NCBI RefSeq assembly: GCF_016469035.1
Contig: NZ_JAEHJZ010000018.1
Coordinates: forward strand, 124,001 to 188,000
Reading direction: 5' to 3'
From: Gelidibacter salicanalis
Lineage (GTDB): Bacteria > Bacteroidota > Bacteroidia > Flavobacteriales > Flavobacteriaceae
DNA: 64,000 nucleotides
In this document: positions 44,365-61,675 of the stretch, in pieces
How positions within the stretch are numbered: position 1 is the stretch's first letter
Layout of the letters: each line of letters opens with the position of its first letter
Program-made: the position numbers and the translations under genes
Notes under the pieces: generated by a model
Databases searched by the model: none
Told to the model about the DNA's origin: nothing
Seen by the model: only the letters and a program-made list of their open reading frames with translations

Positions 44365-44586
44365 TTATTTCCTCTTATCCCCAGCTTTTGTATCAATAGC
44401 AATCAAATTAAACAGTTCCTGCATCCTGCTTCGCACCCGATGTCCATAAAATAATTCTAACTCATCTGCACTTAAGTTGGATGTAGCATGTGTTTTGACT
44501 TTAGTATTGGTCTCCAAAAAAAGTTCGTAACGGGACAAGAGCACTTCAGCCATCACATTGAGATCCTTTCCACAGCCCACAGGCCT
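44365..44586 (-). pseudogene. Internally deleted copy of the DnaC/IstB-like ATPase gene
   Basis: About 72 codons match the 56,379-57,041 protein: the Walker A stub VGCGK is joined directly to DLNVMAEVLLSRYELFLETN and on to FNLIAIDTKAGDKRK. About 180 bases between the P-loop and DLNVM are missing; GGAAAG/GGAAGG at both edges of the deletion suggests slippage. The 3' 200 bases differ from the intact gene at about 19 positions. Upstream of the P-loop the sequence is unrelated. The two copies are direct repeats around the 44.6-56.4 kb cargo block. Confidence 0.85.
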
Positions 44587-44678
44587 GGAAAATGGAATGA
44601 CCTATTATCCACCATGTTATGGAAGGATGGAGATATTGAAACAAAATTATTTCCTATTTTTATAAAATACGAATCAGC

Positions 44679-45107
44679 CTATTTTATAATGCTATCTTTA
44701 ATAATAAAATTGAAAAGTTGTGTTGTTAAGGAATGACTAATTATATGAGCTTTGGTGTAAAATTCATTTATTATCTGCTCACATTCACTTGAATTAGGTA
44801 TGAGCAGATCATATTGTTCAGTCTGCAAGATCTTTTTCAATTCCAATCTTAACGCTCCCTCCTTAAAAACCCTCTTTTTCTTAAAATCATCCATTCTTTG
44901 CCATCTATTATGAAATGATTGATAATAACCATAGTGCCGAGATAAATAAAGATGAGGTATATTGTTTTCTTGCTCTGAACTGTTTTCAGGTAAAACGGTA
45001 AAGAAAGTTACTTCTGAATTCGTTTGTCGTGCAAAATCGACGGTATATGAATAACGCTCATAATCAATATGCTGAATATCGAAAGGATAAAATATTTTTG
45101 AAGTCAT
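44679..45107 (-). CDS. Universal stress protein-like (C-terminal half degenerate)
   Basis: The product has 142 residues from the ATG at 45,107 (MTSKIFYPFDIQHIDYERYS). A longer frame to 45,245 would overlap the kinase gene. The opening (strand plus helix YTVDFARQTNSEVTFFTVLP) is like UspA family proteins of Bacteroidota. The usual ATP-binding G-2x-G-9x-G-S/T loop is not evident, and the sequence YDLLIPNSSECEQI stands where it would be. It is the last gene of a minus-strand group with a two-component system. A role in envelope or osmotic stress is inferred. Confidence 0.5.
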   Translation of the reverse strand: MTSKIFYPFDIQHIDYERYSYTVDFARQTNSEVTFFTVLPENSSEQENNIPHLYLSRHYGYYQSFHNRWQRMDDFKKKRVFKEGALRLELKKILQTEQYDLLIPNSSECEQIINEFYTKAHIISHSLTTQLFNFIIKDSIIK

Positions 45108-45165
45108 TAAGTAGCGATTATTAACATTAATATTCCCAAAACATAAAACCAAATTCTTAAGGGAA

Positions 45166-46419: not shown

Positions 46420-47099
46420 TCTTGATCACTAAATTTATAGCCTACTCTATAGATAGATTTGATATAGTCTTGTCCACCGAAATCTGAGATTTTTTTTCGC
46501 AAATTAGCTAGATGTGTATATATAAAATTAAATGAATCTGAATTTTCTATATGGTCGCCCCAAATATGTTCTGCAATGGCTTCCTTTGTCAGTAAGCGAT
46601 TTTTATTAGCGATGAAGAAATTGATAATATCATATTCTTTTTGTGTTAGAGTTAAAGCTTGTTCATTTACTAAAACCAAGCGTTTTTCAGGTATTATTTT
46701 TATTTCATTGAAAATAATATCGTTGCTACCATTATAAATCTTTCGCCTGTACAGTGCTTTTATCCTGGCATTGAGTTCTGGCAGATAGAAAGGCTTTGTC
46801 AAATAATCATCTGCGCCCAATTCCAACCCATTTATTTTATCATCTAAAGCATTCTTTGCCGAAATGACAATGATGCCCACATCAATATTCTCTTGCTTAA
46901 CTTCTCTTATAATATCCAACCCGCTACCATCTGGTAATGTAATATCAATTACTAATAAATCATATTGAAAATCATTTATTTTTGACAATGCTGATTGATA
47001 ATCTTTAGCAATCTCGCATACATTGCCTTCACGCTCAAGATACTCTTTAATGTCTTTTAATAATTCTATATTGTCCTCAATAACCAATATTTTCATCAA
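46416..47099 (-). CDS. OmpR/PhoB family response regulator
   Basis: The product has 227 residues. The receiver domain has acidic pocket IEDN, phospho-acceptor Asp52 in LVIDITLPDGSG, and Lys102 in GADDYLTKPF. The C-terminal winged helix reads LTLTQKEYDIINFFIANKNR, then YTHLANLRKKISDFG and YRVGYKF. It is coupled to the kinase by the ATGA overlap. It probably regulates the cargo block that lies upstream on the same strand. Confidence 0.93.
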   Translation of the reverse strand: MMKILVIEDNIELLKDIKEYLEREGNVCEIAKDYQSALSKINDFQYDLLVIDITLPDGSGLDIIREVKQENIDVGIIVISAKNALDDKINGLELGADDYLTKPFYLPELNARIKALYRRKIYNGSNDIIFNEIKIIPEKRLVLVNEQALTLTQKEYDIINFFIANKNRLLTKEAIAEHIWGDHIENSDSFNFIYTHLANLRKKISDFGGQDYIKSIYRVGYKFSDQE

Positions 47100-47127
47100 T
47101 AAGCATTTTAAATTATAAAAACCACCA

Positions 47128-47451
47128 TTAATTTGTTTGTTTTGATATTTTCTCTGAGGATTGATAGATTTTATTGAATTTCAACTCTAACTTTTCATAT
47201 AGTTCGTGACCATCTTTAAAAGAGCCACCCTCCTTTAAATAGAAATATAAATTGTCAAAATTAACAATTAGTTCGTTCATTTGTCCTACGGGAACATTTA
47301 ACTCGTTTTTATATGTCAGCCAATTATTGCTAATCAAACTGTTGGTGTTTTGATTTACATAGCTTAACGCTAGCGAGTGATTTAGATAATTTTCAAGTAA
47401 AATTCGTTTTTTCAAACAATCAAACGCAAGAGAAAATGATTTAAGTTCCAT
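47128..47451 (-). CDS. Hypothetical protein
   Basis: The product has 107 residues, helical, with no signal peptide and no known motif (FSLAFDCLKKRILLENYLNH, then LKEGGSFKDGHELYEKLELK). It lies 28 bases upstream of the response regulator on the same strand, so it may be co-transcribed. It may be a cytoplasmic adaptor; this cannot be tested from sequence alone. Confidence 0.55.
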   Translation of the reverse strand: MELKSFSLAFDCLKKRILLENYLNHSLALSYVNQNTNSLISNNWLTYKNELNVPVGQMNELIVNFDNLYFYLKEGGSFKDGHELYEKLELKFNKIYQSSEKISKQTN

Positions 47452-47555
47452 AAGTCCTATATACCTTAATTTGTTTTGTGATATCTATTTCTTTTATTAT
47501 TTGGAATATATTTATACGATCCTTATATAGGTGAATTCTAAATCAAAAAAAGATT

Positions 47556-47812
47556 TTAAAAATCAAATAAATCACCTAAAAAAGAATCCCGCTTCTTTTT
47601 TCTATAATCAGGATGTTTTTGATCAAACTTGGTATATTCTTGTTGTGAATCTTTACTTTGTCGATAGGTTTGAGTATTTTCAGAAGAACGCTCGATAATT
47701 TAGTCAAGTTCTCCACGATCTAACCATATACCTCGGCAATCTGGGCAATAGTCAATTTCTACACTTTACGGTCAGTCATTTCTAAGTTCCTAGTACAATT
47801 TGGACATTTCAT
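47556..47812 (-). pseudogene. TFIIB-type zinc-ribbon protein, frameshifted
   Basis: From the ATG at 47,812 the frame reads MKCPNCTRNLEMTDRKV, then a TAG. After a shift the second half follows: VEIDYCPDCRGIWLDRGELD, a TAA, then IIERSSENTQTYRQ and the tail KKKRDSFLGDLFDF with TAA at 47,558-47,556. The CPxC...CPDC pairs and the WLDRGELD motif identify the zf-TFIIB family. One frameshift and one nonsense codon inactivate it. Confidence 0.75.
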
Positions 47813-47863
47813 TTTTGAATGTTTTTTATATTATTAGTTCCTCATCTTAATCAGATACCGTAA

Positions 47864-48175
47864 TTAATTGAGAATATTTTGCAATGATTTCATAGTTTTA
47901 TTCGACATAGAGTCAACCTTGTTTGCAATGGAATCTACCTTGGAACGATTCTTTTCAAATAGAGAATCTAGCTCCTTTATTTTACCTGTTTTTAATTCAA
48001 CCAAAGAGTCAATATTTTTAAATTTATCTGTTTTTGCAGTTACAATTGAATCAAGTTGCTCTGCTTTGTTACTTAAGCTATCAAGGTTTTCATTAACTTT
48101 ATTATTCATTTCACTACACGACATTAATAAAAATATCATTATAGACGATAAACTGTATTTTAAAATGTTTTTCAT
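47864..48175 (-). CDS. Small coiled-coil lipoprotein
   Basis: The product has 103 residues with lipobox FLLMSC (Cys20). The mature part is a long helix with heptad-like repeats (LDSLSNKAEQLDSIVTAKTD, then IDSLVELKTGKIKELDSLFE), like Lpp-type periplasmic coiled coils. It is the first gene in front of the zinc-ribbon remnant. It may tether or space the outer membrane; that is inferred from form. Confidence 0.65.
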   Translation of the reverse strand: MKNILKYSLSSIMIFLLMSCSEMNNKVNENLDSLSNKAEQLDSIVTAKTDKFKNIDSLVELKTGKIKELDSLFEKNRSKVDSIANKVDSMSNKTMKSLQNILN

Positions 48176-48326
48176 GATTTCCTATTTTATATTTCCTTTT
48201 ATTAATCCTATTACAATCATTTTATGTTTGAAATTTGGTACTAATGTATAATGTAATTCTTTAGCAAAATATAAGAAGGGTAAGCGTTTTGTTTTTTATT
48301 GGAATATAATCCTCAATTTAAAAAAA

Positions 48327-49100
48327 TTACAGTTCACTAATAAAAATCAAAAAAACTACTCCAATCGCGATTCTATAATATCCAAAATGTTTGAATCCGT
48401 AATTCTCTACTATTTTTAGAAATATTTTTACCGCAAACCAAGCACTAATAAAAGCAACCAACAAACCAATACCCAATAATTTTAGTTCATAAGCGGAAAA
48501 AGAAATTGGTGTTTTAAGCAAATCATAGCCCGTAGCAGCAAACATAGTCGGTATTGCCAATAAGAATGAAAATTCAGTTGCTTGTTTTTTGTTAAAGCCA
48601 TTGAATACGCCGCCTACGATGCTTGCAGCCGCTCTCGAAGTTCCCGGTATCATTGATAAGCACTGCATAAGCCCTATGTAAAAAGCATTTTTATTTGATA
48701 TTTGCTCTAAGCTCTTTATTTTACTTTGGGTGTTTACCACCCTTCTGTCAATTAGTATTAAAACTACACCTCCTATAATTAGTGATATAGAAACCACGAT
48801 AGGATCGAAAAGTACATCCTTAATAAAATCGTATGCCAAAAAACCGATGATGGCAGTGGGAATAAACGCAATAAATAATTTGATGTAAATATCAACACTT
48901 TGAAAAAATCGTTTTATATACATTAAAGCTATAGCAAGAACAGCCCCTAACTGAATAACAATTTCGAAAGTTTTTACAAATTCATCATCGTGAATTTTCA
49001 TTGCCGAAGAGGCGAGAATCATGTGCCCAGTAGATGAAACGGGAAGAAATTCTGTTAGTCCTTCGATGATTGCTATAATTATAGCCTGTAGTACATTCAT
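48327..49100 (-). CDS. uppP: Undecaprenyl-diphosphatase UppP (BacA)
   Basis: The product has 257 residues with about eight transmembrane segments. The catalytic motifs are EGLTEFLPVSSTGHM (residues 14-28) and PGTSRAAASIVGG. It recycles undecaprenyl pyrophosphate for cell-wall and glycan synthesis, and in extra copies can give bacitracin tolerance. It is adjacent to apbE (one base between) in a minus-strand operon. A copy on a mobile element suggests an accessory role alongside the chromosomal enzyme. Confidence 0.95.
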   Translation of the reverse strand: MNVLQAIIIAIIEGLTEFLPVSSTGHMILASSAMKIHDDEFVKTFEIVIQLGAVLAIALMYIKRFFQSVDIYIKLFIAFIPTAIIGFLAYDFIKDVLFDPIVVSISLIIGGVVLILIDRRVVNTQSKIKSLEQISNKNAFYIGLMQCLSMIPGTSRAAASIVGGVFNGFNKKQATEFSFLLAIPTMFAATGYDLLKTPISFSAYELKLLGIGLLVAFISAWFAVKIFLKIVENYGFKHFGYYRIAIGVVFLIFISEL

Positions 49101-49101
49101 A

Positions 49102-50100
49102 TTACTCTTGTAAAAATTTATTAGAACTCCATACTTTTAAAGAATCATTTTCTGAAAAAATTAGAAAGCCCTCAATAGCGAGCTTGTCTTCAATAAATTG
49201 TTTTGCCTTATTGAGCCCCATTGCCATACAGGCCGTTGCTAGCGCATCTGCCTCGGTTGACGCTTTAGATTTGATGCTGGCGCTCAACAAATGATGCGAT
49301 ACGGGAAAACCTGTTTTCGGGTCTACAATATGAGAATGCTTGTTACCTAGGCTATCTGAATAAAATTTTCTGTAACTTCCTGAAGTGCTTAAACCCACAT
49401 CGTTCAAATAAACGGTATTTATTACCGCTCTTTCTGACATTGAAGTGGTGCTGCTGGGTTTTTCGATGCCGATGAGCCAGATTTTTCCCCTAGGATTGTT
49501 TCCTTTGGCATACATTTCTCCTCCAAGTTCAATCATATAGTTTTTTACACCACTTTTATTTAAAATAGACGCAATTGCATCGATGGTATATCCTTCGCCT
49601 AGGGCGCTCAAATCAATTTCAACTCCTGTTTCCGTGGTCTTTATCAGATTTTTTTCAATGGAAATGTTATTCTTAAAATCAGTCAATTTTAGTAATTGAA
49701 CAACTTTTGAGGTATCTATTTCAGCCCTATTCTCAAATCCATTTTTCCATTCACTTATTAAAGGATAAATAGCTGGATTAAAATATCCGTTTGATTGGTT
49801 ATAATAGTATTGTGCCTTTTTGAGCATATCCACAAAAGTAGGCGATGGGTCTTTATAAACCCCTGTTCTGTTTAAAACAGAGATTTGCGAATTTTTATCA
49901 TAGGTATTGGCCGCACGGTCAACTGCTTTAAAAACAGAGTCTATTTGTTTTGAAAAATCAATATGAGAATCAATTTGAATGTTATATTCTGTACCAAAAA
50001 CCACTCCTTGTAGTGTTTTGTAGGTTTCTTTGTTATTAGTTTTACAACTCACTAAAAACAACAACACAACTACACAAAAAAAGTAGATAGCTCCTTTCAT
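49102..50100 (-). CDS. apbE: FAD:protein FMN transferase (ApbE), lipoprotein
   Basis: The product has 332 residues with lipobox FLVSC (Cys19). ApbE motifs are IDLSALGEGYTIDAIASIL (flavin-binding), LGGEMYAKG, DVGLSTSGSYRKF, HIVDPKTGFPV and STEADALATACMAMG. The enzyme attaches FMN to Thr of redox proteins such as RnfG or NqrB/C. No such acceptor is nearby. It is packed between uppP and corA, with zero or one base gaps. Confidence 0.95.
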   Translation of the reverse strand: MKGAIYFFCVVVLLFLVSCKTNNKETYKTLQGVVFGTEYNIQIDSHIDFSKQIDSVFKAVDRAANTYDKNSQISVLNRTGVYKDPSPTFVDMLKKAQYYYNQSNGYFNPAIYPLISEWKNGFENRAEIDTSKVVQLLKLTDFKNNISIEKNLIKTTETGVEIDLSALGEGYTIDAIASILNKSGVKNYMIELGGEMYAKGNNPRGKIWLIGIEKPSSTTSMSERAVINTVYLNDVGLSTSGSYRKFYSDSLGNKHSHIVDPKTGFPVSHHLLSASIKSKASTEADALATACMAMGLNKAKQFIEDKLAIEGFLIFSENDSLKVWSSNKFLQE

Positions 50101-50973
50101 TTACAACCAGTTTTTACGTCTAAAAAACAGCAACGTAATTAAAGAGGAAAGTACCATAAAACCAATAGCAAATGGATATCCCCAAGTTTTGTCCAATTCT
50201 GGCATATACTTAAAATTCATACCATACATACTGGCTATTAAGGTGGGTGCCATAAAAATAACAGTAACTACCGTGAAAATTTTTATGATTTGGTTTTGCT
50301 CTATATCAACTAAACCAAGAAAGGTGTTTTGAAGAAATTCGAGCCTGTCGAAATTAAAATTAGTGTGTTCTAATAAAGAACCATAATCTTTTATTATTAT
50401 TCGTATGGTGTCATATTTATCTGTTGAAAAAAAATAAGTTTTAAAAGTGGCGGACAGTATTCTTTGCTTTTCTATAATATTTTCACGTATGGATATGGTG
50501 GTTTCTTGTAAGGCGGTTATTTTATCCGTTGTGCTTTTTATAAAGTCCGCATCAAAATCAATACTTATCTCGAGTAGGGTCAAAAAAACATCAATACCGT
50601 TTTTAGGTCGATACGGCTTTATTTTATGATAATAGGCATGAGAAAAAGTTTTATAATCCTTTTGACGTTGGTTAATTAAAAAATTGTCTTTTAAAATAGA
50701 TGATATGGGTTCATTTATGAAGTTTTCATTTTCGGTGCTTAAAAAATTAAGATTTATGCCTATCTCATTATCAGATTCAATATATTTTGAACTGGATTCA
50801 ATTTCTTCTCTTTCTTGCCGTGTAAATAGCTCTATTTTTAGCGTTGTTTCTTCGAAATTTTTATCTTCTTCTGTTGGGTCAATCAAATTAATCCAAATAC
50901 AGTTGGAAGCCACAGCATCTAATCCGGATGTTATTTTCAGTTGCCCATTTTCTCTACTTGTGAATTTTATCAT
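50101..50973 (-). CDS. corA: CorA-family divalent cation channel
   Basis: The product has 290 residues. The long cytoplasmic domain is followed by two C-terminal transmembrane helices with the selectivity motif YGMNFKYMPEL between them and a terminal RRKNWL. It would import Mg2+, Co2+ or Ni2+. The start at 50,973 is the only good ATG. It abuts apbE directly. A second CorA lies at 53,032. Confidence 0.9.
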   Translation of the reverse strand: MIKFTSRENGQLKITSGLDAVASNCIWINLIDPTEEDKNFEETTLKIELFTRQEREEIESSSKYIESDNEIGINLNFLSTENENFINEPISSILKDNFLINQRQKDYKTFSHAYYHKIKPYRPKNGIDVFLTLLEISIDFDADFIKSTTDKITALQETTISIRENIIEKQRILSATFKTYFFSTDKYDTIRIIIKDYGSLLEHTNFNFDRLEFLQNTFLGLVDIEQNQIIKIFTVVTVIFMAPTLIASMYGMNFKYMPELDKTWGYPFAIGFMVLSSLITLLFFRRKNWL

Positions 50974-51021
50974 TTGACCGCTGTCTTAACTTTTTAGAAA
51001 TCCCATAACTTACGCTTGTCA

Positions 51022-51984
51022 TTATTGTTTAATAATAAGATAAGTTATATACATTGCGTAAGTAATTATAAAAAACATTCCATTCCAGCGGTCAATATGG
51101 TTTTTCTTACCTATTACTAATGCTATAATTAAAAAACTGCTTGCAAGTAATACGGTTAAAATGTCTGTATTATTTTCTGCGGCAAAAGGTAACGGCTTGA
51201 TTAAAGAGCTTATTCCCAAAATCCACAGTAAATTGAAGATATTTGAACCTACAACATTACCTATTGCAATATCTGTGTTTTTGCGGTATGCAGCAACGGC
51301 AGAGGTGGCTAATTCAGGTAAGGAGGTTCCAACCGCTACAATAGTCAATCCTATAAATGATTCGCTTAATCCATACATTTTAGCAAAAACTATTGCTCCA
51401 TCAACAATCCACTTACCTCCAAAAAACAAGCCCAAGCAGCCCAAAACGATATATAAAATGGATTTATTGGTTGAGTACCTAATTATGTCATCTGTTGAAA
51501 TAGTAATGTCTTTTTCTTTCGATAATTTAAAGATATAGGCCATAAAAAGCAAAAAGAAAAATAAAAGCAGTATGCCATCCCAAAAACTCAATTCGTGCTT
51601 TACAGTATCAAAAGGTAATTCAGAATTAACAAGAAAGCCTACAAGTAATATAGCAGCTATAGAGAAAGGTATTTCTGAAAAAACTGTACTGTTTTTTAGC
51701 GGTAATGGATAAATTATCGCTGAAATACCAATAATCAATAATATATTAGAAATATTACTTCCAAGAATATTTCCTACAGCTATACCTGCACTGCCCTCTA
51801 TACTCGCCATAATATTTACAATCAATTCAGGCATTGATGTGCCAAAGGATACTATCGTTAAGCCTATAACTAAATCTGACCAACCAAAAGTCTTTGCGAT
51901 AGAAGAGGCTCCTTTAACTAATATATCTGCCCCTTTAATTAAAAGAGCAAAGCCCAAAACGAAGAGTGTTATTGTAATTACCAT
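51022..51984 (-). CDS. Calcium/sodium antiporter (CaCA family)
   Basis: The product has 320 residues with about ten transmembrane segments and the two inverted alpha repeats GLTIVSFGTSMPEL and GLTIVAVGTSLPEL that bind Ca2+/Na+. It belongs to the YrbG/CaxA-like K+-independent exchangers. It lies 48 bases upstream of corA in the same direction. The normal length and both repeats intact suggest it is functional. Confidence 0.95.
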   Translation of the reverse strand: MVITITLFVLGFALLIKGADILVKGASSIAKTFGWSDLVIGLTIVSFGTSMPELIVNIMASIEGSAGIAVGNILGSNISNILLIIGISAIIYPLPLKNSTVFSEIPFSIAAILLVGFLVNSELPFDTVKHELSFWDGILLLFFFLLFMAYIFKLSKEKDITISTDDIIRYSTNKSILYIVLGCLGLFFGGKWIVDGAIVFAKMYGLSESFIGLTIVAVGTSLPELATSAVAAYRKNTDIAIGNVVGSNIFNLLWILGISSLIKPLPFAAENNTDILTVLLASSFLIIALVIGKKNHIDRWNGMFFIITYAMYITYLIIKQ

Positions 51985-52066
51985 AAAATAGTGTCTATTA
52001 AAAGAGTTTTTTTTGATTCCTGACTGTGTTGTTGTAGCTTGTGCCTAACCGGTAGTGGTATATACA

Positions 52067-52942
52067 TTAATTAATGTTTTTCGTGAAGATATTTTTAAAT
52101 ATTTTTACCAGTATCAAGGCAATAATTCCCACAACCAAGCCTGTAATAAATTCGGCTAAAAGTGCTGGTAATGCCTTTAGAAGTTCGTGAACGAAGTGTA
52201 CATTATGTAAAAATATGCCACCAGCAACTAGAATAAGGGCTATAGTACCAATAACGGCTAAACTTTTAATAATCTTAGGTAGTGCCTGTACCAATATATT
52301 ACCAACAGTTTTTCTTATCCCATTTTTATTATTACTCAACTTAATTAATTTAAAGCCCAAGTCGTCCATTCTAACTATAAGTGCTACAATGCCATAAACC
52401 CCAACCGTTGCAATAAGTGCTACAAATGAAACCACTAAAATTTGAGTGGTTAAGGATTTCTCTAAAACAGTGCCAAGAGCTATAATTACAATTTCAACAG
52501 ATAAAATAAAGTCGGTTACAATAGCCGATTTTATTTTATCTTTTTCATGTGTTAAGATTTCACTTTCTGATAATTCTTTGGTTTCAATTGCACTTTTAGG
52601 ATGTTTATGGGGTATTAGATATTCGTAAATTTTCTCTGCACCTTCATATGCCAAATAAACAGCACCAATCAATAATATGATAGTAACTGCCCAAGGTACA
52701 AATGCACTTAAAAGAAATGCCAGCGGTAAAATAATGAGTTTGTTTAAAAATGAGCCTTTTGTAATGGCCCATAAAACCGGCATTTCTCTTGAAGAAACAA
52801 ATCCTGATGCTTTTTCGGCATTTACTGCCAAATCATCTCCTAAAATACCTGCTGTTTTTTTGGTGGCAATTTTACTCATTGCGGCAACATCATCCATAAG
52901 TGCTGCGATATCATCTAGTAATGCAAAAAATCCTGATGCCAT
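52067..52942 (-). CDS. DUF808 family membrane protein (YedI-like)
   Basis: The product has 291 residues. The N-terminus MASGFFALLDDIAALMDDVA is the family hallmark, followed by EMPVLWAITKGSFLNKLIIL and about six transmembrane segments. DUF808 proteins have no established function, but here the gene sits with ion transporters. A possible transport or regulatory role with CorA and CaCA is inferred. Confidence 0.9.
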   Translation of the reverse strand: MASGFFALLDDIAALMDDVAAMSKIATKKTAGILGDDLAVNAEKASGFVSSREMPVLWAITKGSFLNKLIILPLAFLLSAFVPWAVTIILLIGAVYLAYEGAEKIYEYLIPHKHPKSAIETKELSESEILTHEKDKIKSAIVTDFILSVEIVIIALGTVLEKSLTTQILVVSFVALIATVGVYGIVALIVRMDDLGFKLIKLSNNKNGIRKTVGNILVQALPKIIKSLAVIGTIALILVAGGIFLHNVHFVHELLKALPALLAEFITGLVVGIIALILVKIFKNIFTKNIN

Positions 52943-53031
52943 ATATTTTATTCTACTTTAATTGTTCGTTATCTATTTTTATGTACTCCTAAGGTGTCTG
53001 TTCCTTGCCGTATTTACTGGATATTTAGTTT

Positions 53032-53910
53032 TTAAAATATCTTTTTTAATTTAAACCAAACATAGATGACTAGTGCGACAAACACCATTACACCTAATGT
53101 TATGAAATAACCATTTTGCCATCTCAATTCCGGCATTATGTCAAAATTCATTCCGTAGATACCAGCTATAAAAGTCAATGGTAAAAAGAATGCCGAAAAA
53201 ACGGTCAACAGTTTCATTACATCACTACTTTTATGCGCAGTTATGGATAAATAGGTGTTTAAAATAGAATTGGCCTCTTCTATGGTTTCTTCATATTGCA
53301 AGAGATAATTAAGTGCGGTATCTTTTATATCACTTATAGTTGTGTCCAATTCTGTTGCTACAGAAATGTTATTGAGAACGTTTTGGGTTAGTTGCAACAA
53401 CTTTTTAGAAATTCGTGCTTCAGATTTTTGGTAATACAATGACTCGATGGAAAGCTTAAGTCCGTTTTTTAGAAATATTTCTTTTTCAAACTCATCCATT
53501 TTACTGCTTTGTATTTCAAGTGGATGCTTATAGGTCAGCAGCATATTGTCTATGATTTTCAACATTAGTGCTTGACTGCTATGATAAGTGTCCGGAACAT
53601 TTTTCAAGAAATCGAAATCAGCTCTGTGGATAGTCAAAAGATTATTGTCATTAATAAAAAAGGCTATTTTATTTGATAATTCCTCCACTGTAGTGGCATT
53701 TTTCATTGCTTCAGAAGTATAGGCCCGTAGAATAATAAACGTATAATCATTGATTTTTTCTATTTTGGGTAAATGACCGTGTTGTAAACTATCTTCCAAT
53801 AAATTAAAATCGAGATTAAAAGGTTGGTCTAGACTTTTTAGTTCATCTTGAGTTGGGTTTTTAAGGTCCGTCCAAGTGAAGTTGCTAAATGTTTTAGTTG
53901 TCCTGCTCAT
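53032..53910 (-). CDS. corA: CorA-family divalent cation channel (second copy)
   Basis: The product has 292 residues: cytoplasmic funnel domain and C-terminal YGMNFDIMPEL motif with transmembrane helices (LLTVFSAFFLPLTFIAGI, FITLGVMVFVALVIYV). It differs strongly from the CorA at 50,101, so it is not a recent duplicate. Its first 17 bases overlap the end of a decayed thioesterase gene. Its GMN loop is intact. Confidence 0.9.
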   Translation of the reverse strand: MSRTTKTFSNFTWTDLKNPTQDELKSLDQPFNLDFNLLEDSLQHGHLPKIEKINDYTFIILRAYTSEAMKNATTVEELSNKIAFFINDNNLLTIHRADFDFLKNVPDTYHSSQALMLKIIDNMLLTYKHPLEIQSSKMDEFEKEIFLKNGLKLSIESLYYQKSEARISKKLLQLTQNVLNNISVATELDTTISDIKDTALNYLLQYEETIEEANSILNTYLSITAHKSSDVMKLLTVFSAFFLPLTFIAGIYGMNFDIMPELRWQNGYFITLGVMVFVALVIYVWFKLKKIF

Positions 53911-54389
53911 TCGTAAAAAAAGGTTTCATTTCATTACTAATTTGCTCTCTTAAAGTCTTTAACTTCTGAGCATAATTTGCCATTTGCTTTTCTTTTTGAG
54001 TTTTAGGTATCCATTTTTTACAACTGTTGGTTCTTCAGTTTCGTCCACAGATACAAATACAATGACACAATGCGTTTTTTTTCAAAATCTGGTTGTTCGA
54101 AATTTCTAAAAAACACATCTACAGCTATGTGGATACTTGTATTTCCTGTCTAAATTACAGATGCGACAATCTTAATCACGTCACCTTTACTTACAGGCTT
54201 ATAAAACCTAATACCTCAAACATAAATGGTTACGCAATAATTACCGACCCAATTTCTTGCGCAGGTGTAGGCTGTTTGGTCTATCCTTTTCATAACAATT
54301 CCACCGTGAACTTTACCTCCAAAATTTACATCTGTAGGTTCACTGATAAAATGAAATGATATTTTGCGACTATTTTCATTTTTATTCAT
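53894..54389 (-). pseudogene. Acyl-CoA thioesterase (hotdog fold), broken
   Basis: From the ATG at 54,389: ISFHFISEPTDVNFGGKVHG, then VMKRIDQTAYTCA, GIRFYKPVSKGDVIKIVASV and GNTSIHIAVDVFFRNF, the YciA-type hotdog domain. A TGA and a TAG interrupt it, and a frameshift follows FEK. In the shifted frame the family tail reappears (TQKEKQMANYAQKLKTLREQ and on), stopping 17 bases inside corA. It overlaps the methyltransferase stop by eight bases, so the three genes once formed one operon. Multiple lesions show it is dead. Confidence 0.8.
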
Positions 54390-55014
54390 TTGATTTAATA
54401 GGTATTAATGCGTTCCCTGAATTTTGTTTGACTAAACTTGTAATTCTACAATTATAAATAAAGGCAGGTGGAAGATTCCATAATGCAAAATCTACTTTCA
54501 CTTCTTTAAACAAGCTCTTAAACAAACCGTGCTTATTAAGGCTATACTGATATTGAACAAAACGACCATTAACACTTAAATAGCGCTTTATTTTATTCAA
54601 CAGTAGGTTGGTGTCTGCCTCTTCAAATAAAGAAATTGGAAGACTTGATATTACATAATCAACTTTATTTATAGAATAAGCTTTCATCACTTTATCAAAA
54701 TTTAGCGCCGATGTATGGTATATGTTGAGATTACAGTTGTCTTTAAACTTGTTTTTAGAGTATTTGTAAAATTTGGGGTTTGTTTCAAAAGAGTAAATGG
54801 TGGTGTCTTGATTTACTTTTTTTAATATTTCTTTGGTAATACATCCATTGCCCATTCCAAACTCTAAAATGATTTTCGGTTCATTAAAATTTAAGCCCTT
54901 TAAGCACTTGTTTATTAAGTGTTTAGAGCTTGAGCCAATAGTGCCACTTGTTTTTATGGTACTTATATATTCTAGTGAAGAGATTTTCATTTTATTTGCA
55001 ATTTTAACCATCAA
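54382..55014 (-). CDS. PmtA-like phospholipid N-methyltransferase (class I SAM)
   Basis: The product has 210 residues. Pre-SAM segment TSGTIGSSSKHLINKCLKGL and motif I ILEFGMGNGCITKEI resemble the PmtA and KsgA-type methyltransferases. Then FETNPKFYKY and the catalytic-type VISSLPISLF follow. A phospholipid or small-molecule substrate is suggested by similarity to PmtA, but rRNA dimethylases share the motifs. It precedes the thioesterase remnant in a lipid-related group. Confidence 0.7.
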   Translation of the reverse strand: MMVKIANKMKISSLEYISTIKTSGTIGSSSKHLINKCLKGLNFNEPKIILEFGMGNGCITKEILKKVNQDTTIYSFETNPKFYKYSKNKFKDNCNLNIYHTSALNFDKVMKAYSINKVDYVISSLPISLFEEADTNLLLNKIKRYLSVNGRFVQYQYSLNKHGLFKSLFKEVKVDFALWNLPPAFIYNCRITSLVKQNSGNALIPIKSNE

Positions 55015-55184
55015 TTCTTTAGCAATATTTAAGTTGAGTATCCATTTGTTTTTTTGAAGGCAGTTTCAACTTATTTCTCCTTTCAAAAGGCAAATAAAAA
55101 ATTTAATCATCTCTTAAGTTTTGCTAAAGATTAGTATTCTATGTTTAGGTTTTTTATTAGTTAACAGTTTATATTTGATAAAAA

Positions 55185-55805
55185 GTGAGTTTTCGAAAAT
55201 TTAAAAAATGGTTTATTAGGTTAGTTGTTTTGTTCGTGCTGTTTACCGTTTTTATAAATTTTTATATACTTACTTTTTCCTCACATTACCTTTATGATAC
55301 TGCTGATAAAATTCCTAAAACAACTTATGGTATGGTTTTAGGGACAAGTAAATATTTGATAAAAGGCGGTAATAACTTTTTTTATGTTGAACGAATGAAA
55401 AGTACAGCAGATTTGTACCACTCAAATAAAATTGATACTATCATTGCAAGTGGTGACCACTCAGACAAATATTACAATGAACCTTTACAAATTAAAAAGT
55501 CTCTTATTGCCCTTGGTGTCCCAGAAAGTAAAATTATTTTAGATGAAAAAGGAATTAATACGTTTCAATCCCTAAAGAATTTTAAAAAAAATCATCTCAA
55601 CAATCCTGTAATTATTATTACCCAAAAGTTTCACAACCAACGGGCTATTTATTTTACTAAAAATCTTAAATTAAATGCCATAGGAATCAATGCCGAAAGC
55701 CTTCCTTTTACGGTTGCGCCAAAAACGTATATACGAGAATATTTCGCTAGGGTAAAAGCATTTATAAATGTTCAATCTTATATCCTCACAAACGTGTCAA
55801 TCTGA
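55185..55805 (+). CDS. SanA/YdcF (DUF218) family membrane protein
   Basis: The product has 206 residues from a GTG at 55,185. One N-terminal transmembrane helix (LVVLFVLFTVFINFYILTF) is followed by the DUF218 domain: YGMVLGTSKYLIKGG, IDTIIASGDHSDKYY, GVPESKIILDEKGINTFQSL and VIIITQKFHNQRAIYF. SanA-type proteins affect envelope barrier function and vancomycin sensitivity in enteric bacteria. It is divergent from the methyltransferase. Confidence 0.85.
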   Translation: MSFRKFKKWFIRLVVLFVLFTVFINFYILTFSSHYLYDTADKIPKTTYGMVLGTSKYLIKGGNNFFYVERMKSTADLYHSNKIDTIIASGDHSDKYYNEPLQIKKSLIALGVPESKIILDEKGINTFQSLKNFKKNHLNNPVIIITQKFHNQRAIYFTKNLKLNAIGINAESLPFTVAPKTYIREYFARVKAFINVQSYILTNVSI

Positions 55806-56378
55806 ATTTAATAGGAGAGTTCTCTATTATTTTTGCTTCAGTATTTGACACATATGTGAATCATTAACCGGCTGACTTTATTATGTTTCAATTTATTTTG
55901 TATTTTCTTGCGTACTCAAATTTTAAAAGTGTGTTGCATTTTTAAAATATCAGTTGTTTAGGGTATAGGCACAAAAAAAATGATTCAATCCTGATAAAAC
56001 CTATTGAGAATCAATCTTTTTGATGCAATGGATGCTTCGAAAATACTTCTATTATTGTTAAAGGATTCATATGCCGTACGCTTTTTTCATCTTCTGATAA
56101 ATTAACTGCGGCCAACCAATTTACCCTTTTGAGGTTGACTGGTAAATTGGTGCTCCACACTAAAAGTTGATATCCTAATCCGCGTGAATGAAAGAATGGC
56201 AAGGAAGTTCTAAAGCCTAAAGAAAAGGATTGTTGTGTATATTGCTCTTATGGAACAATTACTTTTTCGCCAATTCAAGAAGGAAGTCGTTGTTATTGAA
56301 AATTTTATATTCAGCATTAAAGAGTAAATAATTAGTAGTAGTCCTGTAAAGATAATTATTCATCAAAAGTCTTTTAAG
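55806..56378. other. Non-coding stretch at the right end of the cargo block
   Basis: About 570 bases with no supported gene. A minus-strand frame at 56,011-56,202 (63 codons, GLGYQLLVWSTNLPVNLKRV) looks like a fragment but matches nothing I know. The right-hand edge (56,350-56,385) joins the intact ATPase gene's 3' flank. Confidence 0.45.
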
Positions 56379-57041
56379 TCATTTCCGTTTATCCCCAGCT
56401 TTTGTGTCAAAAGCAATCAAATTAAACAGTTCCCTCATCCTGCTTCGTACCCGATTCCCATAAAGTACTTCCAATTCATCTGCACTTAAGTTGGATGTTG
56501 CATGTGTTTTGATTTTAGCATTGGTCTCCAAAAAGAGTTCGTAACGGGACAGGAGTACTTCTGCCATCACATTGAGATCCCTTCCATAAAATCGTCCTGC
56601 GGGCTCAATGCCCAAATCATCAAAACAGAACGATTTCGTGTTTCCGTAATCTTCGATTGTTTTAAAACCAAGATGATTATAACTAAACGTGACATTGCGG
56701 CAAGGAATGACTTCATAAGGTCGTTGCGTAGGCACAATATGGCGCACGAGCTTCATTAAGCTGGTCTTTCCACAGCCCACAGGACCGCAAAGAAGTATCC
56801 CTTTATCCGGGTCTATATCATTTTTCTCGCAATAGTCTTTGTCCTTTATAAAATAATGGCACAGTTTGCGAATAACTGTAATGTCTTTATCATAAATCTT
56901 AAAATGGTTTCCAAATAAGGATTTTCCCTTGACAGCCAGATAGGTCAGGATGAGATCAAAATCATAAATGATGTGCTTACCATCAAATTCGCCCAGTGAG
57001 TATTCCACATCATCTTCAATAATTTTAGAGGGGTTGTCCAT
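56379..57041 (-). CDS. DnaC/IstB-like AAA+ ATPase (probable helicase loader)
   Basis: The product has 220 residues from the ATG at 57,041 (MDNPSKIIEDDVEYSLGEFD). The alternative start at 57,089 reads through the upstream gene. Walker A is CGPVGCGKTSLMKL (about residues 86-99), Walker B FCFDDLGIE, sensor-1-like THATSNLSADEL, and the arginine finger region NRVRSRMRELF. Size and motifs match DnaC/DnaI-type loaders and IstB ATPases. It overlaps the initiator-like gene by 17 bases and would deliver replicative helicase to the element's origin. A partial copy lies at 44,365. Confidence 0.8.
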   Translation of the reverse strand: MDNPSKIIEDDVEYSLGEFDGKHIIYDFDLILTYLAVKGKSLFGNHFKIYDKDITVIRKLCHYFIKDKDYCEKNDIDPDKGILLCGPVGCGKTSLMKLVRHIVPTQRPYEVIPCRNVTFSYNHLGFKTIEDYGNTKSFCFDDLGIEPAGRFYGRDLNVMAEVLLSRYELFLETNAKIKTHATSNLSADELEVLYGNRVRSRMRELFNLIAFDTKAGDKRK

Positions 57042-57846
57042 AATCTTTATTTTTAGTGGTTCGCAGGTTGTCCTTGTCCCGATATCCATCGGGATGGGAC
57101 AGTTGATTTTTGTTTGGTTTGTTTGCTTCGGAATATAGCGCTGTTCTATCCATCCAGTTAGCGGCTAAAGCACGCCAATCTCGAATGTCTTTACCATCAC
57201 TTGTTTTCCAATTCCGATTTTCATAGTGCTCGAAGAATTTTTTTCCTTCATCAGCAGTAAAACTTTTTTCTAAAAAAAAATTAATAACGGCCTGCCAGCC
57301 CTTTGGTTGTTTTATAATGTTTACTTGTTTGGTATTGTTTATAGTAGATCCCATTTTAAGTCCTGTGGTGGGACTGTAGTGTCCCATGACAGGTTCATAA
57401 TTGGGACTGTGGAGTTCCGCAACCTGTTCCAATATGGGACTGTACTCCCCTGATATGGGACTGTAGTGTCCCAGAGTCGGTTTGTTTTTGGGACTGTAGA
57501 GTTCCGCCACATGTTCTAATATGGGACTGTCACATCCCATATTAGCCCCATCATCTGTGCAAAGAATGGACATCTTTATTTTGCTTCCCTTATAAGGACT
57601 TTTGGAAGGAAAATATGAAAGATAATTCCATGAGTTTAGGTCGGTCACACACCTATGGTAGCTTGATTTTGAACGGATTTTGGAGGCCGTCATCAAATCC
57701 GTTCGATTCACATAGAATTGAATTGCAAACCGGCTACTGTTCCATTCTTGGAACAGTGCCATATAGAGACTGATGTGTGGAGGATTTAGACGGTCATCCA
57801 AAAGAAATTTTTCATAGGCCGCATTGAGTAGTTTAATGTAATTCAT
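57025..57846 (-). CDS. Winged-helix replication initiator-like protein with internal iterons
   Basis: The product has 273 residues. Residues 1-95 look like a DnaD/Rep-type winged helix (ISLYMALFQEWNSSRFAIQF, then MTASKIRSKSSYHRCVTDLN). Residues 106-159 carry six repeated S-P units (YSPILEQVAELHSP and similar), which are the translation of DNA repeats with 33- and 21-base spacing. The C-terminal part (FLEKSFTADEGKKFFEHYEN, then WRALAANWMDR) is a DnaD-C-like helical motif. A 5' HTH gene and 3' ATPase gene flank it. A phage lambda O-like initiator role is inferred from this arrangement; no direct family match is claimed. Confidence 0.65.
   Translation of the reverse strand: MNYIKLLNAAYEKFLLDDRLNPPHISLYMALFQEWNSSRFAIQFYVNRTDLMTASKIRSKSSYHRCVTDLNSWNYLSYFPSKSPYKGSKIKMSILCTDDGANMGCDSPILEHVAELYSPKNKPTLGHYSPISGEYSPILEQVAELHSPNYEPVMGHYSPTTGLKMGSTINNTKQVNIIKQPKGWQAVINFFLEKSFTADEGKKFFEHYENRNWKTSDGKDIRDWRALAANWMDRTALYSEANKPNKNQLSHPDGYRDKDNLRTTKNKDYGQPL
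57070..57100. repeat. REP-like palindrome inside the initiator 3' end
   Basis: TCCCGAT-ATCC-ATCGGGA (57,077-57,094), flanked by GTCC and GGAC, encodes residues near SHPDGYRDKDN. It matches the type at 36,002. The reading frame is preserved through it, so it extends the C-terminus of the protein. Confidence 0.55.
57370..57538. repeat. Six iteron-like GGGACTGT repeats (candidate replication origin)
   Basis: GGGACTGT occurs at 57,370, 57,403, 57,436, 57,457, 57,490 and 57,523. Spacings are 33, 33, 21, 33 and 33 bases, that is about three or two helical turns. Most copies continue into an imperfect palindrome such as GGGACTGTAGTGTCCC (57,370-57,385, 57,457-57,472). They lie in the coding sequence of the winged-helix gene. 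Direct, phased repeats next to an initiator and a loader gene are typical of iteron origins. Confidence 0.65.
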
Positions 57847-57849
57847 GGC

Positions 57850-58134
57850 TTAGTAATTTAGGTTGTGCTGCACACGATTTGCAGTCAAAATTTCTTGGAT
57901 TTCTTCGGCATCATAATAAATGATTCCTCCAACTTTGGTGTAAGGTAAGGTGCCATTGATACGAAGATTTTGTAATGTGCCCGGACTTACCTGAAGCAAG
58001 TCCATGACCTCAGAAGATTTGAGGTATCTTTTCAATTTCCCTTTAGACTGTTTGGTTAAGAGGTTTTTAATGTCATCGAGCAGTTCCATTTTGAATTCCC
58101 GAAGATCGTCGGTGGTAATAATACTTGTTGGCAT
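57850..58134 (-). CDS. Helix-turn-helix excisionase-like DNA-binding protein
   Basis: The product has 94 residues. The MerR/excisionase HTH (YLKSSEVMDLLQVSPGTLQN) is followed by LRINGTLPYTKVGGIIYYDA, the wing. Such small HTH proteins accompany Bacteroidota conjugative elements as Xis-like or replication regulators. The stop is three bases before the initiator-like gene's start, so the three genes form one operon. Confidence 0.85.
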   Translation of the reverse strand: MPTSIITTDDLREFKMELLDDIKNLLTKQSKGKLKRYLKSSEVMDLLQVSPGTLQNLRINGTLPYTKVGGIIYYDAEEIQEILTANRVQHNLNY

Positions 58135-58144
58135 AATAACATGG

Positions 58145-58222
58145 TTTTGTAGAAAGGGACTATCGCATTGCTGTCAATCATTTTGATAGCCCCTGACCAG
58201 ATTTGACTTTCGTTCTACAAAA
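58145..58222 (-). promoter_or_regulatory. Inverted repeat in the promoter of the HTH-initiator-loader operon
   Basis: TTTTGTAGAA (58,145-58,154) and TTCTACAAAA (58,213-58,222) are exact reverse complements 58 bases apart, in the leader of the minus-strand operon. A second, inner pair (TCAATC against GATAGC region) is weaker. The repeats may be operators for the HTH protein. The rest of 58,135-58,406 shows no gene; a further AGTCCC...GGGAT pair at about 58,255-58,270 echoes the iteron core. Confidence 0.5.
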
Positions 58223-58406
58223 TTGTTGGATATTGTTGATGAATCATCAATAGTCAGTCCCAAGGTGGGATGTTTTTTTCAAAATAAAATTTGAGTCGTT
58301 TTGGTATTGGAAGGTAAGGAAAGACAAGGTTTTTGACTCCAAATGATCTCAAAGTAAATGGAAAATGGAAGGGGTCAAGAATTCCCAAGTTGGGATCATC
58401 TATGGA

Positions 58407-59246
58407 TTATTCATCAGAATCTTCAAACCGCATTTCGAGGGAATCCTTGAGCTTGTCCACAAATTTGGTCTTATTGGATTTTCTGGCCCTGATCTCTATA
58501 AAAGTGTGGTAGTAGTTGCCCAGTCCAATGTTGAACATTTGCTCAAATAGGGATGCCAATTCCTTTATGTCGGCGGTGCCGCTGTTGATGGCCCCGCTGC
58601 TGTGAAGCGCGTAGATCAGTTCAGTGAGTTCCGTTTTGCTTCCCGTCCAGAAAAGTTTAGAAGATGATTGCTTCATAGCGTTATTATAAGTGTCTGTGCT
58701 GGTCTGTAGTTTTTCTATTTCCTGTTGCAGGTATACAATCAACATGTCGTAGGCAATTATGGTGGCCACGGTGGTGTCCTGACAGGTAGAAAACTGTTCG
58801 TCTATAAAAAAATGGTAAGATTCTGTAGGTAACCGTAAATCCGACTTACCTCGGATAAAATATTCTTCATCCAGGGTGGTTGCACCTCTGCGATAGTAAT
58901 GGTAGAACTCTAAATTATCATTAAAGAATACCTGCAATTTATCGATATGGTTGTTGAGATACCTTATTTGAAATTTAGAGCTGCTCCGTGGACGTTTACT
59001 TTCAATATTAAAGAGTCGTACATAGTAGATGAGCCTGCTGAAAATTTGTGGCTTAACATGCTTAAAAAAGCTGATCTCCTCATATTTCGAACCAAACCCC
59101 TTTTCAATAACTTCATTCCGAAGTTGTTTGATGCAGGTTTCAGTCTTGGCAATACTATGTTCTGCCCTATATAAAATATCATCAGTCTCAAACTCCAAAG
59201 ATTCAAGTTTTGATTCAAATTCTGATATTAATTCCTGGTATCTCAT
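58407..59246 (-). CDS. rteC: RteC family regulator of element excision
   Basis: The product has 279 residues. The helical body (ISFFKHVKPQIFSRLIYYVR, YYRRGATTLDEEYFIRGKSD and YDMLIVYLQQEIEKL) is that of RteC, which in CTnDOT activates excision after antibiotic sensing. The C-terminal HTH-like region reads KTELTELIYALHSSGAINSG. No rteA/rteB two-component genes or tetQ are adjacent, so its activation must differ. It lies 26 bases downstream of the synthase gene on the same strand. Confidence 0.88.
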   Translation of the reverse strand: MRYQELISEFESKLESLEFETDDILYRAEHSIAKTETCIKQLRNEVIEKGFGSKYEEISFFKHVKPQIFSRLIYYVRLFNIESKRPRSSSKFQIRYLNNHIDKLQVFFNDNLEFYHYYRRGATTLDEEYFIRGKSDLRLPTESYHFFIDEQFSTCQDTTVATIIAYDMLIVYLQQEIEKLQTSTDTYNNAMKQSSSKLFWTGSKTELTELIYALHSSGAINSGTADIKELASLFEQMFNIGLGNYYHTFIEIRARKSNKTKFVDKLKDSLEMRFEDSDE

Positions 59247-59272
59247 TGCAATCTGGGGTCATACGTTTATCC

Positions 59273-61675
59273 TTATCGAGATTCCAATAAACCCATGAGT
59301 TCCAGTGTGTAATTGTCAGCAGTTTGTATGTAGGCATACTTCCCTTCAACACTGGCCCCAAGTTTTCTTTTTTCAAATGCTGCGGTCATTCCCAGGTCAA
59401 TGTGTTCAAAATTTAAATGGATTGCCCTTTTGATGGTCTGATAAAGTAACTGTCGGTAGGTCTGGTAAGTTTGGAGATGGTCATAATCGATTCCCACCAA
59501 AGAAGGGACGTAAGTGCGGTTCTTGTTTTTATAGCAGAACATGACCCCTATAATCCCTTCAGTGGCTTCCGGGGCTTTAATGGTTATAAACTCCCAATTT
59601 GGACTTTCTGACATGTTCTCGAATAATTTTGTGGGATATGAAAAAGTGTTCAGGCCTAAATTGTTTTTTCGGACCTTGTCATACAGTTTTTTTACCTGGA
59701 TTATTTGAGAGTTATCCAGCTCAGAGAGTACGGATATTTCCAATGTAGGTTCGTGGGCCAATATGTCCTTTCTATAATGTCTTCGGCTCCGCGATGAAAG
59801 ACTGTCAATGTAGTTTTCAATGGATTCGTTTGGTCTTAAAGTGATATGGCATGAGTCTGGCATCTGAACCCTAAAATAACCTTGCCCCTGAAAATAGCTA
59901 TGCAATCTGTCGTTCTCGCTAAAATCGCGCAGGGAGACCATTTTTGAATTTGTATCCTTCTCTAATTGTTCCAAGGTTGCCATCAGTTTATTTAAGGCCT
60001 CGTTCTTTAGGGGATGGTTGTCATCTAAATAAAGATGGTTCCCTTCAGTGAAGAGACATCCTAAACTTAAAACGTTTGATGTCATGTAATAGGGGTCCGT
60101 CAGACGTTTTTCTTCAATAGTTTTGGATGCGATTGCATTTGCAAGCATATCGTCCTTCCAGAGAGAGGAGGACAATAGGGCCGCCAATACAAGTCGGTTC
60201 TTTTGGTCATATATTAGTAAATACCAAAAGGACCAATTATGTTCCTTCAATTCATTGTTGTTAAAAGTCTCTTCAAGAAACTTCATGCCATCCCAGTCTT
60301 GAACACCTTTTTTCCCTAAGGACGTATTCCAGGCCGACTTATCTATATTTAAAATGGAATTTTCTAAACGTATGGTTAAATTTTCATGGTTCAAATGTTT
60401 CGGGTTGGACTTTGATTCTAGTTTGAATGCTTGATGGACGCGGTTCAGATCAGTATGCGTTTCTTCCAGAGCCTTTGGCAAATGGTATTCCATGGCCTCG
60501 ACCAAGGCTTTTATTTCTTGCATTTGATTGTGTCTGGAGATCGTAATTCTGACACCGGTATTTTTTACTGGAACGGCTGGGAAAAGCCCAAGATTGACAT
60601 AAAAGCCCTCCTTCATCAAGCGGTTGACAAAATTATAACCTGTGGTTGGGAGCCCTGTGCCAATATAAAATACCGGAGACTCATTGTTATGTATCAGTGG
60701 CAGATCAGTCAACGCGAGTAGTTCGTTGAAATAATTTATTTTTAGCTCTAAATCTGATTGTAAATCGTAGATCTCAGGAGATAAATGAATGTCGGCGGAA
60801 GCAATTGCAGCAGCCACGGAGGCAGGTTCCAACTGAGCAGAAAATGTCAGGGGTCCACCAAAATTTTTAATCTTTCTATGTAATTTTTCATTAGGGCAAA
60901 TCAAAACGGCGCCACTAGCACCGAAAGTTTTACTTAATGTTCCAAACAATAGCATATTTTGCGGTAATTCTTTTAGTACAGACATTACATAACCTGAACC
61001 GTGTTTTCCTCTCCAGCTCATTCCATGAACATCATCTATGTAAAGATGTAACTGGGGATACTTTTGAGATAGTTCCATTAGGTCCTGTAAAGGGGCAAAA
61101 TCCCCAAACATAGAATAAACCCCATCTGCCATATACCATATTTTATTAACTTTATTTCTTAATTCTTTGATATAGTATTCCAACATATCCATATTACTAT
61201 GTCTGATCATCCTTAGAGTTACACCTTTCGATTTTAAAACCGCGGTAGCACTTTGTACGCTCCAGTGCACCTGGTGGTCTAAAATCACCGCATCCCCCTC
61301 CCTTACAGCGGTCGGGATAACAGCTAAATGCCCGAGTGTACTATTTTTTGTAATGAGTATGGGGTGCTCGTACATTTTAAAAATTTTCTCTTCGAGTGGC
61401 GCATAGAGCGGATGTGAAATATATGTTTTAGATAAAGGAAACTGGGTTCCATATTTTTTAATTGCATTTATTGCTGCCTTTTTAAGCCTTTTATCCTGTT
61501 CAAGTCCTAGGTATCCCGTCGTTCCGAAATGAAAGGAAGATTTACCATTAACTTTTATTTGTCGTCCATTTAACTCATTGCCTTCTGCATGAAGATGGAT
61601 TACTCCGGCCCTGGTTGCATTGGTTATTACTTCATCAACCGTATCCAGAAAGTTATTGTGTTTAATCTTAGCCAT
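59273..61675 (-). CDS. Bifunctional alpha-oxoamine synthase-like PLP enzyme fused to a GNAT/FemAB-type acyltransferase
   Basis: The product has 800 residues. Residues about 30-400 are a fold-type I PLP enzyme of the alpha-oxoamine synthase group, with LYIDDVHGMSWRGKHG (PLP ring Asp and His217), LLFGTLSKTFGASGAVLIC with the Schiff-base Lys249, and NFGGPLTFSAQLEPASVAA. Such enzymes condense an amino acid with an acyl-CoA (KBL, BioF, serine palmitoyltransferase, CqsA). Residues about 420-800 resemble Acetyltransf_6/GNAT proteins (LRPNESIENYIDSLSSRSRR, then EGIIGVMFCYKNKNRTYVPS and HIDLGMTAAFEKRKLGA). The fusion could make and then N-acylate an aminoketone, giving a lipid or diffusible signal. 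The substrate is unknown. It ends 26 bases before rteC, so it may be co-transcribed with it. Confidence 0.8.
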   Translation of the reverse strand: MAKIKHNNFLDTVDEVITNATRAGVIHLHAEGNELNGRQIKVNGKSSFHFGTTGYLGLEQDKRLKKAAINAIKKYGTQFPLSKTYISHPLYAPLEEKIFKMYEHPILITKNSTLGHLAVIPTAVREGDAVILDHQVHWSVQSATAVLKSKGVTLRMIRHSNMDMLEYYIKELRNKVNKIWYMADGVYSMFGDFAPLQDLMELSQKYPQLHLYIDDVHGMSWRGKHGSGYVMSVLKELPQNMLLFGTLSKTFGASGAVLICPNEKLHRKIKNFGGPLTFSAQLEPASVAAAIASADIHLSPEIYDLQSDLELKINYFNELLALTDLPLIHNNESPVFYIGTGLPTTGYNFVNRLMKEGFYVNLGLFPAVPVKNTGVRITISRHNQMQEIKALVEAMEYHLPKALEETHTDLNRVHQAFKLESKSNPKHLNHENLTIRLENSILNIDKSAWNTSLGKKGVQDWDGMKFLEETFNNNELKEHNWSFWYLLIYDQKNRLVLAALLSSSLWKDDMLANAIASKTIEEKRLTDPYYMTSNVLSLGCLFTEGNHLYLDDNHPLKNEALNKLMATLEQLEKDTNSKMVSLRDFSENDRLHSYFQGQGYFRVQMPDSCHITLRPNESIENYIDSLSSRSRRHYRKDILAHEPTLEISVLSELDNSQIIQVKKLYDKVRKNNLGLNTFSYPTKLFENMSESPNWEFITIKAPEATEGIIGVMFCYKNKNRTYVPSLVGIDYDHLQTYQTYRQLLYQTIKRAIHLNFEHIDLGMTAAFEKRKLGASVEGKYAYIQTADNYTLELMGLLESR

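Follow-up and report, generated by a model that had tools for sequence, protein, structure and literature searches.

The locus considered here, in a conjugative element of Gelidibacter salicanalis, raises a simple question: what are six near-evenly spaced repeats doing inside a protein-coding gene? The window, i.e., the whole stretch of 64,000 nucleotides that was analyzed (positions 124,001 to 188,000 of contig NZ_JAEHJZ010000018.1), had received a first-pass annotation that placed a candidate replication origin within an initiator locus at 57025–58134. That range holds the initiator gene, a 273-residue open reading frame (ORF) at 57025–57846 on the minus strand, as well as a separate HTH_17 gene at 57850–58134. 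The answer we favor, with a probability of roughly three in four, is that the gene encodes a replication initiator with its own intragenic iteron origin, to which the protein would bind and from which the excised circle of the element would replicate.

The unit GGGACTGT has six exact matches in the window, all on the plus strand (57370, 57403, 57436, 57457, 57490, and 57523), with 33, 33, 21, 33, and 33 bp between consecutive units, as the first-pass annotation had described. Only 0.62 matches would be expected, and six were reached in none of 100 shuffles of the window. With one mismatch allowed there were 29 matches versus 22 expected and, therefore, only the exact cluster is exceptional. 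The array (57369–57540, 51% A+T), the proposed origin core, falls within the initiator ORF, as had been claimed, and consists of two 82-nucleotide blocks with 80% mutual identity. Its plus-strand iterons are TGGGACTGTA at 57369–57378, 57435–57444, 57456–57465, and 57489–57498, TGGGACTGTG at 57402–57411, and a sixth unit, TGGGACTGTC, at 57522–57531, the final part of which differs from the family consensus by one base. An inverted repeat, TGGGAC/GTCCCA, spans 57369–57386 and another is present at 57456–57473; the window sites are partly palindromic and have no A-tract. The proposal that the units lie on nearly one face of the helix is true of neighboring sites, but not of the array overall: with a helical repeat of 10.5 bp, the last site is ~0.57 turn out of phase with the first.

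The nucleotide sequence of the array, rather than the residues it encodes, was found to be under constraint. A scan of genome contigs identified 203 relatives, the best 80 of which, nearly all bearing names of Flavobacteriaceae or related taxa, were combined with the host's own three copies into a close set of 83 loci (73 distinct genes). The linkers of these 73 genes contain 279 tripeptides of the form Y/H-x-P, and in 269 of them the third codon positions are C, T, and C. The codon preceding CCC ended in T in 277 of the 279, versus 121 expected from codon use elsewhere in the same genes. The middle residue, however, varies freely (R 91, H 87, N 52, S 31, Y 9, D 3, E 2, G 2, P 1, and C 1), with most residues belonging to the product set [AC][AG]T. 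That is, two bases are tolerated at each of two DNA positions and the protein follows. Read on the opposite strand, the shared site is TGGGAYKGTR, which had 262 matches in 54,987 bp of gene versus 18 in 811,739 bp of flanking sequence; its five matches in the window are all within the array.

An alignment of homologues had been named in the first-pass annotation as a check on the 33/21-bp phasing. Within the linker, consecutive YACNNTCCC sites were 33 bp apart in 187 of 196 cases, 66 bp apart in six, and 21 bp apart in three; the 21-bp step occurs only in the host's own copies. Linkers most often had four sites (49 of 73 genes) or three (18 genes), with five in three genes, two in one, and one in two. 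At least two sites were present in 72 of the 73 distinct window-type genes (71 when the linker alone was counted).

Repeats in more distant homologues are of a different kind. In L112, which is from another family of the class and has HTH_17- and loader-like genes nearby, TGTCRAAAATG occurs five times at intervals of precisely 23 bp, with phases of 1, 0, 2, 1, 0, and the 11-bp unit is thus read in all three frames. In L111, TGTCCCAA occurs in phases 0, 0, 2, 0, 2, and in L159 related repeats lie 23, 34, and 34 bp apart within the gene. Selection on the protein cannot account for repeats of this kind. Both L111 and L112 have semi-palindromic iterons around an A-tract. Relatives of L112 were matched in 6 of 247 genomes; an ORF filter recovered three of eight entries (L160, L164, and L169), and in these three the repeats were weak or absent. 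Together, the fixed wobble bases and the three-frame case bear out the earlier contention that the DNA constraint shapes the protein, and they contradict the possibility that the repeats are conserved only as amino acids with free synonymous change.

The type of repeat also tracks the recognition residues of the winged helix in the initiator. Repeats of the GTAGT type are found in the phages Freya, L154, L155, and L156 and in L092 and L100; AAAAATTGG-like repeats are found in L122–L125, and many other homologues have ACAAG-type repeats. Of the ten genes with a helix lacking both K60 and H64, seven had the GTAGT type, versus none of the 101 in which both residues are present. The L122–L127 subgroup has no HTH_17 and loader neighbors.

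An AlphaFold2 model divides the initiator into a winged-helix N-domain, an iteron-encoded linker, and a small helical C-domain. The per-residue confidence score (pLDDT) was 87–97 for residues 1–90, below 50 for residues 99–177, and 82–90 for residues 181–230, and the linker between the two domains is predicted to be disordered. The N-domain (residues 1–95; 57562–57846, minus strand) is the proposed iteron binder. Its best structural match was a RepA_N plasmid initiator, and the N-terminal winged helix noted earlier is supported. No Pfam or NCBIfam family was matched above cut-off, and the initiator family is unnamed by any model of either collection. PF06970 (RepA_N) was not matched at E ≤ 1 in the window protein and nine homologues, a sequence search of solved structures with the initiator gave no meaningful match, and a fold search with the C-domain yielded nothing usable. 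The sole PHROG match of the window initiator was phrog_28809, of unknown function. Homologues consisting of the N-domain only (~93–110 residues; L101, L102, L105, L113, and L117–L121) mostly have no adjoining loader and are possibly regulators.

Directly downstream of the initiator, on the same strand, is a gene for a 220-residue DnaC-like AAA+ helicase loader (56379–57041; PHROG 50, DnaC-like helicase loader, 5.6e-15), and such a gene is downstream in all 83 close loci. The first-pass annotation had recognized this DnaC/IstB-like gene and stated that it overlaps the initiator end, which is the case by 17 nucleotides if the in-frame ATG at 57041 is the start codon; the longest ORF begins at 57089. 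The intragenic iterons and the helicase-loader gene immediately after them agree with the O-P-like layout that had been proposed. In phage lambda, the initiator gene O has iterons and an A+T-rich tract in its central part, and the loader gene P is next (PMC7466680). The locus differs from lambda in being carried by an integrative conjugative element, with rteC and an excisionase-like gene as neighbors, and its loader is DnaC-like. In addition, the window protein had no match among the O-like PHROG families; among phage homologues, such matches were obtained for L154, L156, and Freya.

Staphylococcal RepA_N plasmids are, with phage lambda O, the precedents for an intragenic iteron origin, and they provide the second known case of an origin within an initiator gene. 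As described in PMC5703833 for these Gram-positive plasmids, the winged-helix N-domain of the pSK41 and pTZ2162 initiators binds Rep boxes located centrally in rep, the ori-encoded middle is a linker, and the C-domain is small and helical. What is known of lambda O (PMC7466680) and RepA_N (PMC5703833 and PMC7145576) supplies the model: an initiator binds iterons within its own gene, the origin-specified linker can be dispensed with as protein, and the C-domain recruits the replication machinery. The mid-gene position of the iterons is shared with our locus. The differences are the lack of a PF06970 match in the ten proteins searched, the element's own AAA+ loader gene, the Bacteroidota host, and window iterons without an A-tract.

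The three initiator copies in the host genome (window, C56, and C242; 95% protein identity; there is also a divergent copy, C273) offer a further parallel with RepA_N. In 100-bp bins, 57201–58200, comprising HTH_17, the N-domain, and the iterons, showed 93–100% identity in each of the three pairs. On the downstream side, the other copies were 80–93% identical to the window at 57001–57200 and 63–80% in the loader gene. Upstream, C56 was 72–85% identical beyond 58300, with one 97% patch at 58701–58800, and C242 remained 96–100% identical to about 58900–59000. These values indicate that HTH_17, the N-domain, and the iterons have been homogenized together by recombination in these elements, as a block that ends sharply on the loader side and whose upstream end differs by copy. 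In pPR9, the N-domain and origin were likewise exchanged as a block (PMC5703833). Over 56373–61536, the module present three times in the host genome (C89, C56, and C242; L089 and L090) is a mosaic of near-identical and diverged stretches.

Based on the nucleotide-level constraint, the gene order, the predicted domains, and the co-variation of repeat type with recognition helix, all of which are observed, we infer binding, melting, loader recruitment, origin activity, circle replication, and control by RteC. The winged-helix N-domains of several initiator molecules, which are probably dimeric when bound, would occupy the mid-gene TGGGAYKGTR iterons, and this binding would melt neighboring DNA. 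The C-domain would then bring in the AAA+ loader encoded next, and the loader would position the host's DnaB helicase so that the excised circle could undergo theta replication. The iteron-encoded linker would act as a disordered tether whose residues hardly matter, its amino acids following the DNA. Because the operon is beside rteC and an excisionase-like gene, RteC may control it, and the element may be induced to excise and replicate at the same time.

Two observations qualify this reading. The A+T-rich tract just past the array (57311–57340; 80% A+T vs. 59% for the gene) is a possible unwinding element, and in the close loci the mean A+T content was 77.9% over the 30 bp at +30 to +60 past the array versus 59% for the genes. 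However, there are further A+T stretches at +90 to +150 (76% and 71%), and in the window gene the A+T maximum over 30 bp is near 57258–57287 (93%), not at 57311–57340. A melting site past the array is plausible but is not singled out by A+T content, and the A+T-rich flanks lend the origin weak support. Divergent homologues, which were matched in 43 of 395 genomes of the class and 93 of 299 genomes of the family, with others in phages, viral contigs (5 loci), and one plasmid, raise the second point. In a synonymous-recoding test (500 recodings per gene, p ≤ 0.05), linker repeats were in excess in 74 of 121 genes, and an N-domain control stretch was in excess in 20 of 121 versus 6 expected; the test is therefore lenient, and the relatives are also not independent. 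Among 48 entries from the wider search, some of them window-type, the linker was in excess in 21 and the control in 5. Homologues without repeats, which the first-pass annotation had regarded as damaging, are thus not a feature of the window-type genes, but for roughly half of the entries from the wider search the presence of repeats could not be demonstrated.

An alternative that we consider unlikely is that the repeats are operator sites and that the initiator-like protein is mainly a regulator, repressing or tuning the operon from inside the gene with no start of replication. A winged helix with cognate sites is also compatible with a repressor, and short N-domain-only homologues (~95–110 residues) exist, just 1 of 10 of which has an adjoining loader gene, versus 41 of the 49 longer divergent homologues (together 42 of 59). 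The long form, however, has a C-domain and is invariably followed by the DnaC-like loader in the close loci, the sites are hundreds of bases beyond the likely promoter, and the PHROG matches of the phage homologues are among O-like, DnaD-like, or replication-initiation families.

A good deal less probable is binding of the repeats by HTH_17, RteC, or a relaxase, for excision or transfer. The HTH_17 gene is within the block common to the three host copies, and it and rteC are neighbors in nearly all close loci: HTH_17 is upstream in 82 of 82 and rteC in 77 of 79 of those with enough flank. Yet linker repeats are also present in L122–L127, which have no adjoining HTH_17, and in the phage loci L154, L155, L156, and L087, in which HTH_17 was not found at E ≤ 1e-3. 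In addition, the transfer genes identified in the window are 14–29 kb from the array. We regard it as very improbable that the repeats act in mRNA as hairpins or attenuators. At some sites the GGGAC...GTCCC arms could pair, but the inner arm pair (−9, −2) was C with A, a non-pairing combination, in 149 of 272 cases and C with G in 89, and changes in the right arm are not tracked by the left (as judged from pair counts, with no covariance model). A mere proline-rich protein repeat copied by tandem duplication, which the two similar 82-nucleotide blocks might suggest, was rejected, as residues change with the wobble fixed and the L112 unit is read in three frames.

The initiator with an intragenic origin would belong to an element of the CTnDOT type. 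The HTH_17 gene (57850–58134, minus strand; Pfam HTH_17 3.8e-10) is excisionase-like, with PHROG excisionase matches, and is preceded by rteC (58407–59246, minus strand; Pfam RteC 1.2e-82), whose product is a regulator known from CTnDOT-type elements. The window also encodes a TraG-family conjugation ATPase above the NCBI cut-off, TraM- and TraN-like proteins below theirs, and a coupling-protein-like gene. The tra block is ~1.9 kb from the replication module in copy C242, with ~12 kb of other genes between them in the window; these genes (44370–56373; sensor kinase PorY, a response regulator, and others, none for conjugation) are not between the blocks of C242. Based on rteC, the tra genes, and the C242 layout, the replication module belongs to the conjugative element, which has both RteC and CTnDOT-type tra genes.

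Conjugative elements can replicate after excision, and in SXT/R391, Tn916, and ICEBs1-type integrative conjugative elements this relies on a relaxase and oriT, unlike the initiator-iteron origin proposed here. For R391, replication from oriT by TraI is described in PMC4489591. In CTnDOT, RteC activates the excision operon and replication is described as rolling-circle from oriT; elements of this type are usually presented as chromosome passengers with only brief rolling-circle replication at transfer, and the passages of PMC10865816 on these points mention no iteron origin. Among the titles and abstract beginnings covered, with subscription papers mostly outside, none described iterons that form an origin within a gene of a Bacteroidota integrative element. 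Phages and plasmids already provide systems of this kind, and the variation is in its setting, an unnamed family on Bacteroidota conjugative elements; what is new is the evidence for nucleotide-level constraint, the three-frame case, the co-variation of helix and repeat type, the cassette common to the host copies, and the parallel with RepA_N.

The element thus seems to hide its own replication start in the gene for the protein that would recognize it, which suggests plasmid-like copying once it is off the chromosome. We would put at even odds the broader proposal that a widespread, unnamed Bacteroidota initiator family makes many integrative elements plasmid-like replicons, with the origin in the initiator gene, a linker written by DNA-binding needs, an N-domain and cognate iterons that jointly change and recombine as a specificity cassette, and theta replication tied to excision under RteC. 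If correct, a theta-type origin would change the view of the stability, copy number, compatibility, and gene dosage of CTnDOT-type elements, and marine Flavobacteriia would gain a replicon. In this family, moreover, the requirements of DNA binding override the protein sequence with unusual clarity, as chemically unrelated residues swap while wobble bases are fixed and one repeat is read in three frames, and the co-varying recognition helices and iterons make a DNA-recognition code directly testable.

Only one of 72,556 plasmid records had a homologue, Marivirga p1 (L091, NZ_CP129969.1; 27% identity), which encodes a recombinase and several ORFs that look broken or frameshifted, and its support for plasmid function is weak. 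The GC-skew minimum was at base 42 in Freya_1 and at 24551, adjoining the initiator end, in the Marivirga plasmid, but both totals are too strongly biased for these minima to be informative.

Several minor features were also observed. A palindrome, TCCCGAT/ATCGGGA, is at 57077–57094, toward the 3' end of the initiator gene; at about this position, L131 and L152 have a different insertion, IERSRDAK. In L004 (L004:1806–2192), an overlapping 128-residue ORF precedes the initiator. At 58156–58193, in the likely promoter to HTH_17 gene region, GGGGCTAT and ATAGTCCC (in gene orientation) could pair as a hairpin, followed by a T-rich run, and perhaps form an attenuator; GGGACTAT at 58156 would be part of that hairpin and not of the iterons. 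Lastly, the inverted repeats TCCCAAGGTGGGA and CCCAAGTTGGGA, at 58258–58270 and 58384–58395 between rteC and HTH_17, are perhaps regulator sites.
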